In this document: one piece after another, positions 62-8,359 of the stretch
Layout: each line of letters opens with the position of its first letter
Numbering within the stretch: position 1 is the first letter of the stretch
Source of the DNA: Flavobacterium sp.
GTDB taxonomy: Bacteria; Bacteroidota; Bacteroidia; Flavobacteriales; Flavobacteriaceae
Direction: 5' to 3'
DNA: 10,000 nucleotides
Assembly (NCBI RefSeq): GCF_020217025.1
Contig: NZ_JAIWOF010000210.1
Coordinates: 1 to 10,000 of the forward strand
Notes under the pieces: model-generated
The model's input: only the letters and a program-made list of their open reading frames with translations
What the model was told of the DNA's origin: nothing
Databases searched by the model: none
Made by a program: the position numbers and the translations under genes

Positions 62-74
62 CAAACGTCTTAAC

Positions 75-168
75 TAGCCCCGATGGGAGTGGAAATCTTT
101 TTTTGCCTTGTTTCAATTTCACTTAATAGGACAAGGCAAAAAAAATTGTAGCGGACAGCGGGACTAAG
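75..168 (+). ncRNA. Flavo-1-like structured RNA element
   Basis: The segment begins with TAGCCCCGATGGGAGTGG and ends with GTAGCGGACAGCGGGACTA. These halves bracket a long central stem: TTTTTTTGCCTTGT (98-111) pairs perfectly with ACAAGGCAAAAAAA (131-144) around a 19-nt loop. The outer TAGCCC and GGGACTA also pair with one bulge. From memory, this pattern of conserved outer purine-rich strands around a variable stem matches the Flavo-1 RNA motif, found mainly in flavobacteria and of unknown function. It is not a normal intrinsic terminator, because the run after the stem is A rather than T on either strand. Family assignment is by recall only. Confidence 0.6.
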
Positions 169-206
169 AGTTTTTATGGAATGCAGAACATCTGCTTCTA
201 AAAAAA

Positions 207-2095: not shown

Positions 2096-2120
2096 TAGTT
2101 TTTTGATATAAAAATTTAAG

Positions 2121-2257
2121 AAGACTGTCCAAAAAGACCTTATTTTGTCAAGCTGAACTCGTTTCAGCTTCTATAAACAATGACTTATTATTGTTTTTTT
2201 AGATTCCGAAATAAATTCGGAATGACAAAGCTGACTTTTTTGACAGTCTCTTTTTTT
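2121..2257. repeat. Cloverleaf-like inverted-repeat element, probable terminator
   Basis: Outer arms AGACTGTC (2122-2129) and GACAGTCT (2242-2249) are exact inverted copies, and pairing continues imperfectly inward (AAAAAG near 2131-2136 with CTTTTT at 2235-2240). Inside lie three separate perfect hairpins: AAGCTGAA/TTCAGCTT (2150-2157, 2163-2170), AAACAAT/ATTGTTT (2175-2181, 2190-2196) and ATTCCGAA/TTCGGAAT (2203-2210, 2216-2223). The first and third are inverted versions of the same unit, TTGTCA + palindrome + TCTA. Seven T follow the right arm at 2251-2257, so it can terminate the M42 transcript. The terminal inverted repeats and size also fit a small non-autonomous mobile element (MITE-like); no clear target duplication is visible. 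Confidence 0.6.
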
Positions 2258-2455
2258 GCGCTTTTTTGAAGATTTATGAAAATGTACAGAAAATCTACAG
2301 CAATTTATTTGTGAGAATTTTGTTATATTGCAGAGTGAAATAGTCTTATCAAAGATATAAACCTAAAATTGGGTGGATAAGGCTGATTTTGTCAGAAAAT
2401 AAACAAGTTATAGCCAATTAAAAAAATGAAAACTAAAACAGTAAAATAAATACAT
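2258..2455. other. AT-rich gap with inverted repeats upstream of the accessory genes
   Basis: No gene is seen here. AATTGG at 2367-2372 is inverted as CCAATT at 2414-2419, GGCT (2381-2384) as AGCC (2412-2415), and CTGA/TCAG form a small hairpin at 2383-2395. This nested symmetry resembles a recombination-type or regulatory site, but the stems are short. TATATTGC at 2324-2331 is close to the flavobacterial -7 box (one T short) and lacks a good -33 partner. A tiny reading frame, ATG at 2426 to TAA at 2447-2449 (MKTKTVK), ends 6 bp before the next gene; it may be chance. Confidence 0.4.
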
Positions 2456-3040
2456 ATGAAAATAGAACAGAAATTTGATAAAATTATTGACATTTTATAT
2501 GATGAAAGTCTTCTTCATTGGAAAGAAATTCCAGCAACAGACATTATAGCATTTGGAAAAAGTAAATTCAATATTGATTGGTCAGACGCAGAAATTAATT
2601 TTATAATATCAACCTTACAAAATGATGGTTATATTGTACTAAACAAAACAGATGTTGACTCAATGAAAACTCCAACTTTTTCTCTAACGGCTAAAGGAGT
2701 TCAAATGAAACGAAAAGGAGGATTTCAAAAAACTAAACTCGTAGAAGATGTTAAAAATATTATCATTTTATGGGGATCTATAATTGCACTTATTGTAAGT
2801 ATTATTACAGTATATGATTTTATTAATAAAACTTGGCTAACTAATGAATCAAATATTTGTTGTAATTGTAATTCAAAGTCTGACAACGAAACTAAAGAAA
2901 AAAACAATCACAGTACAAATGAAATCAATACTGAAATTAACATAAACGAATCTGACTCAATAAAAACAAAACTTACCGATACAGTTTCCAAAAAAGGAGA
3001 TTTAAAACTGGAAAAACTACAAAAAAAAACAGATAACTAG
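2456..3040 (+). CDS. Hypothetical membrane-anchored protein with wHTH-like N-terminus
   Basis: A 194-aa protein that I cannot assign to a named family. Residues 1-90 look like a small winged-helix fold: several amphipathic helices, a hydrophobic strand (DGYIVL, 57-62), then FSLTAKGVQMKRKGGF (75-90), the LT-x-KG...GG pattern that often ends winged-helix domains. A single hydrophobic segment at about 101-121 (IIILWGSIIALIVSIITVY) should span the membrane. It is followed by a Cys cluster, CCNC (135-138), and a polar Lys/Asn/Glu-rich tail (140-194) that is probably disordered. Orientation is not certain, but the basic stretch before the helix favours the winged-helix part being cytoplasmic. The gene is very AT-rich and lies 170 bp before AIPR on the same strand, so it may be its partner or only a neighbour brought in with it. 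Confidence 0.75.
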   Translation: MKIEQKFDKIIDILYDESLLHWKEIPATDIIAFGKSKFNIDWSDAEINFIISTLQNDGYIVLNKTDVDSMKTPTFSLTAKGVQMKRKGGFQKTKLVEDVKNIIILWGSIIALIVSIITVYDFINKTWLTNESNICCNCNSKSDNETKEKNNHSTNEINTEININESDSIKTKLTDTVSKKGDLKLEKLQKKTDN

Positions 3041-3146
3041 CTACTAAGTGATTTTTAGAAATTTGGGCTTGAGGGTTTAATGAAACAAACTTTTTGTATA
3101 TTTGGCTTTGTCCAAATGGAATTGTTTGTAACAATATAAATCCAAA
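3037..3146 (+). repeat. Flanking repeat, copy 1 (after the hypothetical gene)
   Basis: Starts at CTAGC, overlapping the TAG stop of the hypothetical gene, and aligns with the segment after AIPR at 4976-5092. The best block is TGATTTT...AAATTTGG..CTT..AGGGTTTAATG, with 27 of 32 bases equal by eye from 3049, and similarity continues through TTTGG.TTT...CC.AATG and AACAA.ATAAA.CCAAAAC-like ends. This copy also contains TATATTTG at 3097-3104, an exact -7 box match that may start AIPR transcription (nearest TTG is 25 bp upstream, longer than usual). A wide inverted repeat, GGCTTTG/CAAAGCC (3104-3110, 3152-3158), encloses a small hairpin, ATTGT/ACAAT (3121-3125, 3131-3135). Confidence 0.65.
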
Positions 3147-3210
3147 CTTTGCAAAGCCACGAGACTTTAACTACAACCACTAAACTACAATAACATCACA
3201 AATAGTTATT

Positions 3211-4974
3211 ATGTCAAAATATTCTACACTTGTAAACATCTTAGATACAATAATTAAAGAAGCTCCAACTTCTATGTCAAAAAAATATTCATCTGACGAA
3301 TCAGATAATGAGCAATTGAATCAAAGTCGTTCGAGAGCATTTATACATCTGTATTTAAAAGTCAGTTTTGGTCTTTTGTTATTTGAAGAAAGAGAACATT
3401 TTTTAACTGACGGTTCATATGACGGAGGTATTGATGGCTATTACATAAATCCTGAAAATAAGACAATCTATTTGATTCAATCAAAGTTTAGAACCAATGA
3501 TAAAAATTTTGAAAACAAGCAAATTGCTTTTGAAGAAATTTTGACAATGGATGTAAATAGAATACTTGATGGAGAAACTAAAGATGAAAGAGGAAATGAA
3601 TACAACGGAAAAATAAAACAACTTCAACGAGAAATTTCTAACACCGATAGTATTGGTAGATATTCATATCAAATAGTTATATTGGCTAATCTAGCAGACG
3701 TAAAGAGTAGTGATCTTAGAAAATTATCTGGTGGAATCGCTTGTGAAGTTTTTAATTTTGAAACTTGTTATCAAAAGTTAGTTTTTCCCGTAATAACTGG
3801 AACATTTTTCAATGCTACTGATTTATCAATAAACATAGACTTAAGCAATAAAAATGCTGGTAGTAAAATCAGCTACACAGTTCAAACAAAAAAAGGAAAA
3901 TGTGAAATAACAGTATTATTTATTCCAACAATTGAATTAGCAAAAGTTATGTTTAAATACAAAAACTCTATTTTAAAATTTAATCCAAGGAGTTATCTAG
4001 GACACGAAGGAAAAAATGTACATAATTCAATTAGAGAAACAATTACACAATCCGAGACAAATGAATTTGCTTTGTTTAATAATGGAATAACAATGCTTTC
4101 TGATGAAACTTATATAAATGAAAAAATAGGTCAAAAAAACAAAGCTCAGTTAATAGTTAAAAATCCTCAAATTATTAATGGGGGCCAAACATCATATACT
4201 TTAAGTAAAATATTTGAAGAAAATATCGAAAATAATGTTGAAGAAATCTTTAAGGATAAAGAAGTTTTAATAAAAATCATTACCTTACAAGAGAACAATG
4301 ACATTGCCAACAAATTAGATTTGATTAATGCAATTTCGGACGCAACAAACAAGCAAACTCCAATTATAAATGCAGATAGATTTTCAAACGAGAAACTTCA
4401 AATTGATCTTCAAAAAACACTATTCGATAATTATAACCTTCACTATGAACGAAAACGTGGAGAATTTGCTGATGGAATATACAACAATTACATAACCGAA
4501 AATTCTATTATAGAAAGAAATCATTTCTACAAAATGTTTTATGCATCTAATGGCAAAATTGATAAAGCATCCGAAAAAAAATTATTTTATAAGCAAGGCT
4601 TAACAATAGATGATTTTTCGAAAGACGAATTAGATAATGCTTATTTTGGGCACTTGTGCTTTAAGAGGATTAATGGAGCAAAAAATCCTCATGAAAGAGT
4701 TGATATTGCTGATTTTGCCAAGATATATGCTATGACATATGTTTTCAAACCGAAATCAGTTGAAGATTATCAGAATGCTATCGATGAAAATATAGAAGCC
4801 TTTAATTCTAAGTGGACCGATTTTCTAAATTATTTTACTAAAAGTACTGTTATAACTAAAATTAGAATTGACAAAATTACAGGAGAAAAAAAATCATATC
4901 AAAAAATGGATTATCGAAAATGGTACAACAGCTCAGACTTTGCAAATGATGTGGCTTTTTTCTATAATGACTAA
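3211..4974 (+). CDS. AIPR family (abortive phage infection) protein with nuclease motif
   Basis: A 587-aa protein with two recognisable parts. The N-terminal part carries a PD-(D/E)xK/Mrr-type signature: GSYDGGIDGYYI (68-79), with Asp75, then a strand ending IYLIQSKFR (86-94), giving Gln90-x-Lys92; Gln for Glu is a known Mrr-like variant. Residues about 245-510 match the AIPR domain: FNPRSYLG (257-264), ETNEFALFNNGITML (282-296) and the very typical NPQIINGGQTSYTL (318-331). Members of this family are linked to abortive infection and phage resistance, so defence by nucleic-acid cleavage is the likely role, but the target is not known. There is no signal peptide or membrane helix. The gene is clearly AT-richer than its core neighbours (11 G/C in 4201-4260) and is flanked by related repeats, consistent with acquisition. 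The start at 3211 fits the protein's beginning. Confidence 0.88.
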   Translation: MSKYSTLVNILDTIIKEAPTSMSKKYSSDESDNEQLNQSRSRAFIHLYLKVSFGLLLFEEREHFLTDGSYDGGIDGYYINPENKTIYLIQSKFRTNDKNFENKQIAFEEILTMDVNRILDGETKDERGNEYNGKIKQLQREISNTDSIGRYSYQIVILANLADVKSSDLRKLSGGIACEVFNFETCYQKLVFPVITGTFFNATDLSINIDLSNKNAGSKISYTVQTKKGKCEITVLFIPTIELAKVMFKYKNSILKFNPRSYLGHEGKNVHNSIRETITQSETNEFALFNNGITMLSDETYINEKIGQKNKAQLIVKNPQIINGGQTSYTLSKIFEENIENNVEEIFKDKEVLIKIITLQENNDIANKLDLINAISDATNKQTPIINADRFSNEKLQIDLQKTLFDNYNLHYERKRGEFADGIYNNYITENSIIERNHFYKMFYASNGKIDKASEKKLFYKQGLTIDDFSKDELDNAYFGHLCFKRINGAKNPHERVDIADFAKIYAMTYVFKPKSVEDYQNAIDENIEAFNSKWTDFLNYFTKSTVITKIRIDKITGEKKSYQKMDYRKWYNSSDFANDVAFFYND

Positions 4975-4975
4975 T

Positions 4976-5092
4976 CTAGCAGCGGTTAATAATGATTTTA
5001 CAAAATTTGGTCTTTAGGGTTTAATGGGACAATCTTTGAATGTTTGGTTTTAGACCGAATGAAAGGTCTAGAACAAAATAAACCAAAACCCC
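4976..5092 (+). repeat. Flanking repeat, copy 2 (after AIPR)
   Basis: Begins at CTAGC one base after the AIPR stop codon and aligns with 3037-3146, including AAAATTTGG.CTTTAGGGTTTAATGGGACAA-like and TTTGGTTTTAGACCGAATG-like blocks given here only in outline. It carries about 8 extra bases near the start (GCGGTTAA region) and small indels inside. TAGACC (5051-5056) and GGTCTA (5065-5070) form a 6-bp hairpin with an 8-nt loop. At the matching place copy 1 has different bases that can form only a weaker hairpin. The TATA part of copy 1's -7 box is not kept in this copy. Confidence 0.65.
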
Positions 5093-5139
5093 CGCTCCCT
5101 TACAAATCCTTTGCTATAGCAAAATAAAAAAACAAAAAA

Positions 5140-5159
5140 AATCCCGCTTTCGCGGGATT
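5140..5159. terminator. Bidirectional intrinsic terminator between AIPR and ankyrin genes
   Basis: AATCCCGC (5140-5147) and GCGGGATT (5152-5159) form a perfect 8-bp stem with a 4-nt loop. On the minus strand it is followed by a long T-rich run (complement of 5123-5139), ideal for ending the ankyrin transcript, whose stop codon is 6 bp away. On the plus strand it is followed by TTCTTTTATC, enough for AIPR read-through to stop. The same stem-loop recurs at 8340-8359. Confidence 0.9.
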
Positions 5160-6754: not shown

Positions 6755-8332
6755 ATGAAACAGTTTTTTTGCATTAGTGCTATTTGTTTGTTAATTGCCT
6801 GCTCTTCTTCAAAACAATCTACTTCTAATTTAGATGGTTTACCAAAGTTGTCCTATTCGCAAATGTTAGAAGATCACGATACTTTGGTGTCTTTAATCAA
6901 ACAAACAAGTCCAATTATCTATTTTAATAAAGAAGTAAGAGGAATTGATTTTAACAAACACGCCGAAAACCTCAGAAAGCAAATTAATCCTAAAACTACT
7001 ACGCCAGAATTTCTTCAAATTGTAGAGAAAACACTAAACTCGGCACAAGACGGTCACACAAACCGATTAGGTCCTGCGCTATTAGACCATATGAAAAAAT
7101 ATGGAATTCCTTCAGGAACGATAAAAGACATTGATAGCGCAGATGCAAAAAACAGTTATGCCTATGACAATTATTTCAAGAAAGAGGTTTACACCAAATT
7201 AGATTTGAACTTGATTTATACTTCTGGCGAATACTATAATTTATTGCCTTTTTCATACCAAGGAAAAAATTATCCTACTTCGATGAAACTTATCAGTTGT
7301 AACGGGATAGCAATTCATGAATTCGTTAATAATCTTACCGAATTGGCTTCTCCTTTACGTTGGGACAGAACCAATAAAAGAACGTACAAAGAGAATTTTT
7401 ATCGCCATTCTGAAGTGTATAAAAACAATGTCCTGCAACTCGTTTTTCAAGACAAAGAATCCAAAACACACAAATTGAATATCGTTAAAAATGATGTCGT
7501 AACTTTTTTAGAAGAAAGAAATTGGAAATACGGTTACAATGGTAGCAAGGATTCTGTAATTACCCATTATTTTGAAAAACAAGGCATTTTTTACGCTAAA
7601 CTTCCAAGAATGGAAGAACATCTGGGCGATTCTATTGATCGTCGTCTTGGAAATATTATTCACAAAAATAAAGTGAATGCCGTTGTAATTGACATTAGAG
7701 GAAATGGTGGCGGTTTTGACGCGGCTTACAGTACTGCTTTGAAGAAAATAGTTAAAGATACCTTACGACAAAATATGGTGTTAGGAATAAATTGGAGTCC
7801 GTACACTCGTAAATATTATGAGTACAATCGCGATTCTATACAGAAAATTCCAATTTTTACTTTTAAAGTTGATGTTCCAAACTTAAAAGAACCTGAAATG
7901 TTCTTCATAAAAATGGCAAACGATTTTGTTGTTCCTGATAGTACAAAATATCCGTTTTCTGGTAAAATTTATATTTTGCAAGATCGCTTTATTTATTCGG
8001 CGTCAAGTAATTTATCAAGTTTAGCAAAAAATAGTGAGCAATTGATTAACATAGGAGAAACACCTGATTTACTTGGCGGAATGCAGAGAAGTCCTTTTAT
8101 TTTAATGCTACCCAATAGTAAAGTTATTTTTAGAGTGGAACCTCAAATTGATTTCACCGACAACAAAACGGCAGAAGATACTTTTAAAAACGATGTTGAA
8201 TATCCAGTCCAATATGCTATTGATCATTTGTATTTACGAACTACAACAAAAGAAAATGTATTTGGAAAAGAGTTTCTTTATAACCACGACCCTATGTTTA
8301 AAAAAGTGTTGGAGTTAGAGAATCGCATATAA
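6755..8332 (+). CDS. S41 family peptidase-like lipoprotein
   Basis: A 525-aa lipoprotein: signal peptide with lipobox LIAC and lipidated Cys16. The following SSSK lacks the acidic residues of the Bacteroidetes surface-export signal, so it probably faces the periplasm. Order of domains: N-terminal helical region (30-110) ending in AQDGHTN (97-103), a PDZ-like segment (about 165-195), then the S41 core with VIDIRGNGGG (311-320) and DRFIYSASS (410-418). Aligning DRF-to-GE spacing with E. coli Prc puts the catalytic serine at Ser415, but the position of the catalytic lysine is Leu440. His101 in DGHT could instead serve as base, as in tricorn-like (S41B) enzymes. Substrate unknown; it may process peptides in the envelope. 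The terminator hairpin follows the stop codon by 7 bp. Confidence 0.87.
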   Translation: MKQFFCISAICLLIACSSSKQSTSNLDGLPKLSYSQMLEDHDTLVSLIKQTSPIIYFNKEVRGIDFNKHAENLRKQINPKTTTPEFLQIVEKTLNSAQDGHTNRLGPALLDHMKKYGIPSGTIKDIDSADAKNSYAYDNYFKKEVYTKLDLNLIYTSGEYYNLLPFSYQGKNYPTSMKLISCNGIAIHEFVNNLTELASPLRWDRTNKRTYKENFYRHSEVYKNNVLQLVFQDKESKTHKLNIVKNDVVTFLEERNWKYGYNGSKDSVITHYFEKQGIFYAKLPRMEEHLGDSIDRRLGNIIHKNKVNAVVIDIRGNGGGFDAAYSTALKKIVKDTLRQNMVLGINWSPYTRKYYEYNRDSIQKIPIFTFKVDVPNLKEPEMFFIKMANDFVVPDSTKYPFSGKIYILQDRFIYSASSNLSSLAKNSEQLINIGETPDLLGGMQRSPFILMLPNSKVIFRVEPQIDFTDNKTAEDTFKNDVEYPVQYAIDHLYLRTTTKENVFGKEFLYNHDPMFKKVLELENRI

Positions 8333-8339
8333 AACAAAA

Positions 8340-8359
8340 AATCCCGCTTTCGCGGGATT
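8340..8359. terminator. Bidirectional intrinsic terminator between S41 gene and purC
   Basis: AATCCCGC (8340-8347) and GCGGGATT (8352-8359) form an 8-bp stem with a 4-nt loop, base for base the same as at 5140-5159. On the minus strand it is followed by TTTTTGTTTTAT, a good T tract for purC; on the plus strand by CTTTCTATAT, weaker, for the S41 gene. Confidence 0.88.

Follow-up and report, generated by a model that had tools for sequence, protein, structure and literature searches.

Why would two neighbouring accessory genes in a Flavobacterium genome each be followed by the same element of roughly 110 bp? The genes and their repeats lie in a stretch of 10,000 nucleotides (nt) (NZ_JAIWOF010000210.1; hereafter the window), which is the entire contig C229; the genome measures 2.5 Mb and is assembled in 238 contigs. 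The original prediction held that gene plus element forms a cassette, as gene plus attC does in integrons, here with a phage-defence cargo. From sequence comparison we consider it likely, with a probability of about 0.87, that the two repeats are decayed attC-like sites and that their gene cassettes belong to an integron-like system widespread in Bacteroidota.

Copy 1 (about 3034 to 3170, plus strand) overlaps the stop codon of an open reading frame (ORF) for a 194-aa protein (2456 to 3040, plus strand), and copy 2 (about 4989 to 5089, plus strand) follows the ORF of an AIPR-family protein (3211 to 4974, plus strand). When copy 1 was compared by BLASTN with the whole 2.5-Mb genome, copy 2 matched at 75% over 97 nt with an E of 8.2e-10, far beyond chance, and the longest ungapped core common to both copies is 45 nt at 82% (3049 to 3093 and 4993 to 5037). 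The same element is thus indeed present behind both genes, as had been noticed. Its 5' edge had been placed at a shared CTAGC (3037 and 4976), which does not hold, as conservation sets in only 12 and 17 nt inside this edge; the CTAGC falls where intact sites have a cassette-specific arm, and its sharing is probably a coincidence. Against the covariance model of the site family, copy 1 aligns over the full model length (3044 to 3169) with 38.4 bits (E 9.1e-6 with 57 kb searched; E 5.5e-7 with 3.4 kb searched and filters off), and the stop codon of the 194-aa gene lies inside its arm, a few nt upstream of an AAC remnant. Copy 2 is recognised by its similarity to copy 1. Both copies are worn, copy 2 more than copy 1.

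The BLASTN search also returned three copies better than copy 2 on other contigs of the genome: on C156 (E 7e-31) behind an FRG-domain/PDC-S15 gene, on C166 (E 3e-27) behind an alpha/beta hydrolase gene, and on C210 (E 1e-14) behind an AbiTii gene. Because copy 2 matches with an E of 8.2e-10 and three better copies follow unrelated genes, the repeat is genuine; it is scattered over the genome and accompanies accessory genes, including several of defence type. Whether copies sit behind unrelated accessory genes or at this locus only had been posed as a check: in this genome they follow unrelated genes, and the survey described below finds sites across the phylum. C156 encodes a tyrosine recombinase (602-aa ORF with a TTG start, minus strand of locus L011, 3268 to 5076; relatives are about 580 aa), and the genes that have copies follow it in the same direction. 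The recombinase closely matches Flavobacterium records, in line with the genus of the genome. The integrase missing from the window is therefore located elsewhere in the same genome, at the head of the C156 array. C156 and C166 are both cassette arrays in which genes and sites alternate, and together they contain ten full sites, scoring 63 to 104 bits. A rule can be read from them: the bases right after the GTT of a site are complementary to the opening arm of the 3' site in the cassette that begins there.

The rule was tested on relatives of the integrase, of which there are 672 proteins at E<=1e-60. A scan of named genomes gave 53 integrase loci, mostly from Flavobacterium, with others from Prolixibacteraceae, one from Saprospiraceae and three archaeal contigs whose match to the integrase is in the catalytic part only. 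A 32-nt motif, AAGTTGTATATATTTGATGATATTTACTA-GTT, lies within 220 nt after the integrase stop, with at most 9 mismatches, in 41 of the 46 loci having at least 60 nt after that stop (own genome included), compared with 15 of 820 random windows from the same loci. Across 40 of these loci, mean conservation is 1.61 bits per base in the 34 positions up to GTT and falls to 0.50 in the 18 that follow; among these 18, base 4 (A/G, 1.15 bits) and base 11 (A in all, 2.0 bits) are conserved. The presence of the motif at 41/46 loci and the drop in conservation right after GTT are the sequence pattern of an attI site with a fixed G^TT crossover.

Starting from this GTT, cassettes were chained by arm match and stem, which yielded 115 cassettes in 29 of 48 loci; this number, and the arm figures that follow, include two cassettes with sites longer than 240 nt (L027) and one in an N-containing stretch (L034) that are probably chance. 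Under strict settings, 20 of the 28 loci with at least 1.5 kb downstream start a chain, as opposed to 5 of 880 random upstream GTT. The start of a cassette pairs with its own arm at positions 1 to 9 in 93–100% of cassettes, a figure that is partly selected for, and at position 10 in 66%. At positions 12 to 15, which were unselected, own arms pair in 76–89%, against 36–63% for the arms of other cassettes. Position 11 pairs in 3%, with A in 113/115 starts and C in 93/115 arms. The inverse core is thus complementary to the cassette's own start across the 115 cassettes, as it is in integrons. The core consensus of classical integrons is the 7-nt GTTRRRY, and the cassettes here do not follow it: position 4 is A/G in 114/115, and positions 5 to 7 are not limited to R, R and Y.

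The sites themselves form a structured family. From 102 sites passing for the model, 49 were non-redundant and 44 were aligned; these diverse sequences align as one hairpin with double compensatory changes in 16/16 predicted pairs. Each site of about 120–130 nt consists of an arm ending in AAC, a short spacer, a covarying stem, a spacer of about 5 nt, and the GTT arm. For 109 cassettes with an arm match of at least 9 and a site shorter than 165 nt, energy calculation favours the bottom strand of the circle form in 103 (mean -30.4 vs -26.7 kcal/mol), and in 108 of the 109 this strand folds better in the circle form than in the array form. The median cassette is 785 nt long. Among the 102 cassettes having an ORF of at least 60 aa, the longest ORF is co-directional with the array in 88, and its stop codon lies 8–20 nt before the arm AAC in 51/88 or overlaps AAC in 13/88. 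The stem often carries an unpaired A/C position (columns 32/135 of alignment A2) and a T.G pair (columns 23/145; 34/44). The A/C mismatch at arm position 11 and the stem mismatches differ between the strands and could be strand-marking.

Some cassettes recur in different species. F. celericrescens and F. piscinae have a 1.5-kb cassette in common (99.5% identity), whose alignment ends lie at -12/+14 relative to the cassette borders; for a second pair, 83% identical, they lie at -3/+4. In the 14 alignments listed (those longer than half of the shorter cassette), integrase-side ends fall at base 3–5 in 12, counting the G of GTT as 1, and at 7 and 18/19 in the other two; a single locus, L047, takes part in 12 of these 14 pairs. 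Covariance model R1 detects the site in 84 of the 101 genus genomes sampled (E<=1e-4) and in 166 of 392 sampled Bacteroidota genomes (E<=1e-6), the 166 coming from 98 of 178 genera; it gave no match at E<=1 on 116 kb from nine control loci. As at most 34 (genus) or 8 (phylum) candidates were scored per genome, the site counts are lower bounds. A long or short integrase is present in 46 of the 84 site-bearing genomes of the genus sample.

The integrase occurs in two main types. The long type, to which we refer above, is present in 6/101 genomes of the genus and in 2/299 of a family sample, and the short type (347 aa), which heads an array in G342, is present in 45/101 genomes of the genus; relatives matched in the catalytic half only head arrays in G450 and G738. 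Extra N-terminal modules number three in the long type, as predicted by a model, and one in the short type, as judged by eye. By the arm rule, a first cassette is found in 12 of 25 short-integrase loci and starts 92–106 nt after the stop in 11 of these 12; in six of the remaining 13 loci the downstream sequence is shorter than 800 nt. Between the short integrase and its attI-like site there is often another stem-like stretch flanked by repeats, such as CTACCCA...TGGGTG (L148, L149, L156–L180), which may amount to a larger binding site.

The best curated match of the C156 integrase is the integron integrase model TIGR02249, at 209.6 bits. Four members of the family remain below its cut-off of 265 bits (209.6, 210.6, 220.8 and 203.6 bits), and the short integrase passes NCBIfam NF040815 ('site-specific tyrosine recombinase/integron integrase') with 230.8 vs 220 bits. 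In 28 aligned integrases, R425, K453, H515, R518 and Y550 are invariant and H541 is found in at least 90%; we take these six to be the catalytic residues. The additional domain specific to IntI near patch III is absent, with 27 residues here and 69 in VchIntIA between the same anchors; a profile comparison gives 34 and 76, leaving the integrase about 42 residues short. Among solved structures, profile comparison ranks IntI4 of V. cholerae (2a3v) best with XerA close behind, and single-sequence and fold comparisons place XerA closest.

At the level of sequence, the site anatomy, the attI-like motif, the arm rule, the covariation, the linkage and the cassettes common to different species are established. 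In intact form, the gene of a dedicated tyrosine recombinase is closely followed by an attI-like site, behind which a directional array begins; each cassette comprises one or a few genes and a hairpin site of about 125 nt. From this we infer a reaction with exchange at G^TT. The site of a cassette circle would be exposed and fold as a single strand, probably the bottom one, and the integrase would join it with attI in this form; excision would take place by the reverse reaction or by recombination of site with site. In the circle, the two arms of one cassette, each of about 15 nt, could pair, and in the array each would face a neighbour's arm and pair poorly. This poor pairing in the array would favour insertion of the circle through folding, and perhaps through reactivity, giving the reaction a direction. 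The window would then hold two old cassettes, one with a gene that resembles no known family and one with an AIPR-type defence gene, stranded in the chromosome after wear of their sites, with the integrase on C156.

What of the two window genes? The 194-aa protein, which by eye contains a membrane stretch, has no match in Pfam, PADLOC or NCBIfam searches, and a search of 248 further genomes of the genus at E<=1e-10 gave no relative. The second product is assigned to AIPR by PF10592 (E 2.8e-30; 106.5 bits vs a gathering score of 25) and resembles AbiU in PADLOC (E 8.7e-24); it falls far short of MzaE, a member of the MZA anti-phage system (NF041935, 59.5 bits vs a cut-off of 1050). The gene is a candidate abortive-infection or defence gene. 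Among the same 248 genomes it has a single relative at E<=1e-60, with 45% identity, and this relative lies in an intact cassette with flanking sites of 96 and 85 bits and a start/arm match of 9/10. This locus in another genome is the strongest support for the cassette reading of the window. Upstream of the first gene, a possible remnant of its cassette start, GTTATAGCC... (2407 to 2420, plus strand), is tentatively recognised by its match to the copy 1 arm.

The spot between an M42 peptidase gene and an ankyrin gene (window 2096 to 5130), in which both genes lie, varies among close relatives. Of eight relatives compared, six are uninformative on the window junction. In G310, there is no counterpart of about 2109 to 5130, and another small gene with a doubled terminator occupies the spot (L108); G363 shares 2250 to 2333 with the window and holds a different gene, a 662-aa candidate (L109). 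Near-identical terminator-like hairpins (AAAATCCCGCTTTCGCGGGATTT) are present at window 5131–5159 and 8331–8359, behind two different genes, and also after the peptidase spot in G310 and G363. Near the edge of the contig, the window carries a Flavo-1 RNA (RF01705, 74.7 bits; 72–169, plus strand).

Several observations, at the window and in the wider family, weigh against our reading. By the covariance model alone, copy 2 scores 9.2 bits, which is below significance. The match of 2407 to 2420 to the copy 1 arm is at chance level (909 of 2000 shuffles are as good), and the arm rule for the second window cassette is likewise not above chance. The breakpoints of G310 are not at the repeats, and neither of the two nearest relatives, G310 and G363, has a precise empty site. 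In the wider family, chaining under loose settings separates loci poorly from controls (24/28 vs 120/440 upstream and 131/537 downstream), so that only the strict figure is usable. No chain was found at L053, L057 and L065, with more than 6 kb downstream, or at L070, with 4 kb. An integrase is present in 5/17 site-free genomes, and none was detected at the thresholds used in 38 of the 84 site-bearing ones. The expectation that strains without the genes keep a single repeat at a precise junction thus failed for this locus, with the G310 breakpoints off the repeats and another gene in G363; precise cassette junctions are seen at other loci. Likewise, the idea of gene plus attC-like site with a defence cargo stands for the family, with its arrays, integrase and arm rule, but the window cassettes' own arm rule is not demonstrable. 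Because the G310 breakpoints miss the repeats and the arm rule cannot be demonstrated there, the window cassettes are old and worn at best.

These observations leave room for the system being real and the window genes having arrived otherwise, for instance by homologous exchange at a variable defence spot, with the repeats as passengers. The variability of the spot, the lack of both genes in G310, the other gene in G363 and breakpoints off the repeats would all fit such an arrival. We nevertheless find it unlikely, given that both genes end in site remnants of the same orientation and that the relative of the AIPR gene lies in a true cassette; that the window genes came as cassettes is our own reading of these remnants.

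Could the repeats have no role in recombination at all? Their location just after stop codons, and the family's hairpin fold with a conserved interior, are also what a conserved 3' untranslated or terminator-like regulatory RNA or DNA element of accessory genes would show. Such an element leaves unexplained why the first 15 nt of a cassette pair with its own downstream arm, why a motif after the integrase has conservation that ends at GTT, and why near-identical cassettes are found in different neighbourhoods; at gathering score, no Rfam family covers the repeat element. We give this explanation almost no credence. A dispersed non-coding element, like a miniature inverted-repeat transposable element or a repetitive extragenic palindrome, that landed behind genes by chance would account for many copies per genome with a similar interior and a length of about 120–130 nt, but it is very improbable in view of the co-directional longest ORFs (88/102 cassettes), the head-to-tail order of the sites and an arm rule specific to each cassette. 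We conclude that decayed attC-like sites of gene cassettes are the likely identity of the window repeats.

The cargo of the arrays was searched in 92 of the 99 longest ORFs (seven minus-strand ORFs were left out). Pfam and PADLOC matches include methyltransferases, GmrSD, reverse-transcriptase defence proteins (AbiP2, Drt6), HepT, ParE, barstar, CdiI and VCH_CASS14, and 22 of the 25 Pfam families listed (of 57) match one cassette protein each. After an OmpA-family gene (L013), an AbiTii cassette is found in the present genome, and different small genes in two close relatives (L131, L132).

A search for sites in plasmids matched seven records. In four that were examined, a site lies directly before tet(X2) (Sphingobacterium), aadS (Bacteroides), a dihydrofolate-reductase-family gene (Flagellimonas) and a stretch beside ere(D) (Myroides). 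By the rule, tet(X2) and aadS are complete cassettes, with arms of 10/10 + 4/4 and a stem of 8/8; the sites before and after score 83 and 57 bits for tet(X2) and 82 and 67 bits for aadS. For blaOXA-347, the arm match is 10/10 + 1/4 and the site after the gene scores 43 bits. With tet(X2), aadS and blaOXA-347 in cassette form on plasmids, the Bacteroidota system, as judged from these matches, most likely also carries mobile antibiotic-resistance genes. The cassette start of tet(X2) also opens tet(X3) on an Acinetobacter indicus plasmid, where a recombinase precedes the gene; this recombinase aligns with 64% of the length of the short integrase, at 54% identity. The 3' flank of tet(X3) fails to fit the gene's own start, and the locus has no model match at E<=0.01. 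The 2020 report of tet(X14) (PMC7473080), in the portions available, notes an adjoining xerD, as also at tet(X3) and tet(X5), reports no integron near tet(X14), and asks if XerD mobilises tet(X) genes. A relative of the short integrase also lies just before blaVEB-3 on a Klebsiella michiganensis plasmid (L187), where an upstream GTTAGCGGTAATTT resembles a cassette start and no site matches the model at E<=0.01.

A broader proposal, which we hold tentatively and at slightly less than an even bet, is that this is a second, phylum-wide kind of integron. Its Xer/IntI-like recombinase, without the IntI insert, would carry out a folded-single-strand recombination of its own; 15-nt arms with a fixed mismatch, together with N-terminal DNA-binding modules, would serve recognition, and the arms would act as an insertion ratchet. 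Resistance genes of Bacteroidota, the tet(X) family among them, might further have their unrecognised origin in this system and have first been moved by it, the 'xerD' next to tet(X) being its integrase. If our reading of the system is right, a major route by which Bacteroidota acquire genes (defence, toxin-antitoxin, restriction and genes that match no family) has been overlooked, perhaps due to an integrase without the domain by which integrons are recognised, and the view that the IntI domain is required for cassette recombination could be tested. We found no description of the system in the literature searched, with preprints outside the search and subscription journals thinly covered.

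Published accounts touch on the system at several points. According to the sections available, a paper on archaeal integrons (PMC9668308) takes the additional domain of IntI as a defining feature, and a classification of tyrosine recombinases (PMC8138268) regards it as essential for integron function and not fully conserved in an integron-like subgroup. An integron survey (PMC9024848), in its accessible text, names one complete integron in Bacteroidetes proper, that of Salinibacter. In Riemerella anatipestifer, aph(3')-IVb integrates without flanking homology together with a short stretch on its 5' side and one of 140 bp on its 3' side; the excerpts of that report (PMC13148043) describe an attC-like predicted fold for the 140-bp stretch, do not name a recombinase and state that the mechanism has still to be elucidated. 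The likeness to the system here, within the same phylum and with an attC-like 3' stretch, is one of description, and our results bear on how Riemerella could insert resistance genes without homology (PMC13148043, as excerpted). They bear also on whether the 'xerD' next to tet(X) genes moves them (PMC7473080): in the parts consulted, reports on 'xerD'-tet(X3) of Acinetobacter plasmids (PMC7494873, PMC7473080) treat the recombinase as XerD, and that of A. indicus resembles the short integrase.

How does the system compare with those already known? It shares with integrons, including sedentary chromosomal integrons and clusters of attC sites lacking integron integrases (CALINs), its directional arrays, an attI-like site by the integrase, a probable G^TT crossover and an AAC/GTT core. 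Also common to both are a cassette start complementary to its own inverse core and a hairpin site whose bottom strand is favoured in folding, and one cargo protein belongs to VCH_CASS14, a family whose name comes from a cassette protein of a Vibrio integron. Unlike integron integrases, the integrase here lacks the IntI insert of about 42 residues, remains below the TIGR02249 cut-off and has extra N-terminal modules. It also lies upstream of attI in the direction of the cassettes, an orientation known in Treponema. In place of the 7-nt GTTRRRY of integrons, the arms here are about 15 nt long and cassette-specific, with a non-pairing A at position 11 (113/115). We call the system integron-like because the IntI insert is missing and the TIGR02249 cut-off is not reached: it is an integron in build that fails these two usual tests of membership. 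With XerA, XerC and XerD, the integrase shares its catalytic domain and core fold. Xer recombinases act on one dif site per chromosome, and in this they differ from the recombinase described here, which heads arrays of different cassettes.

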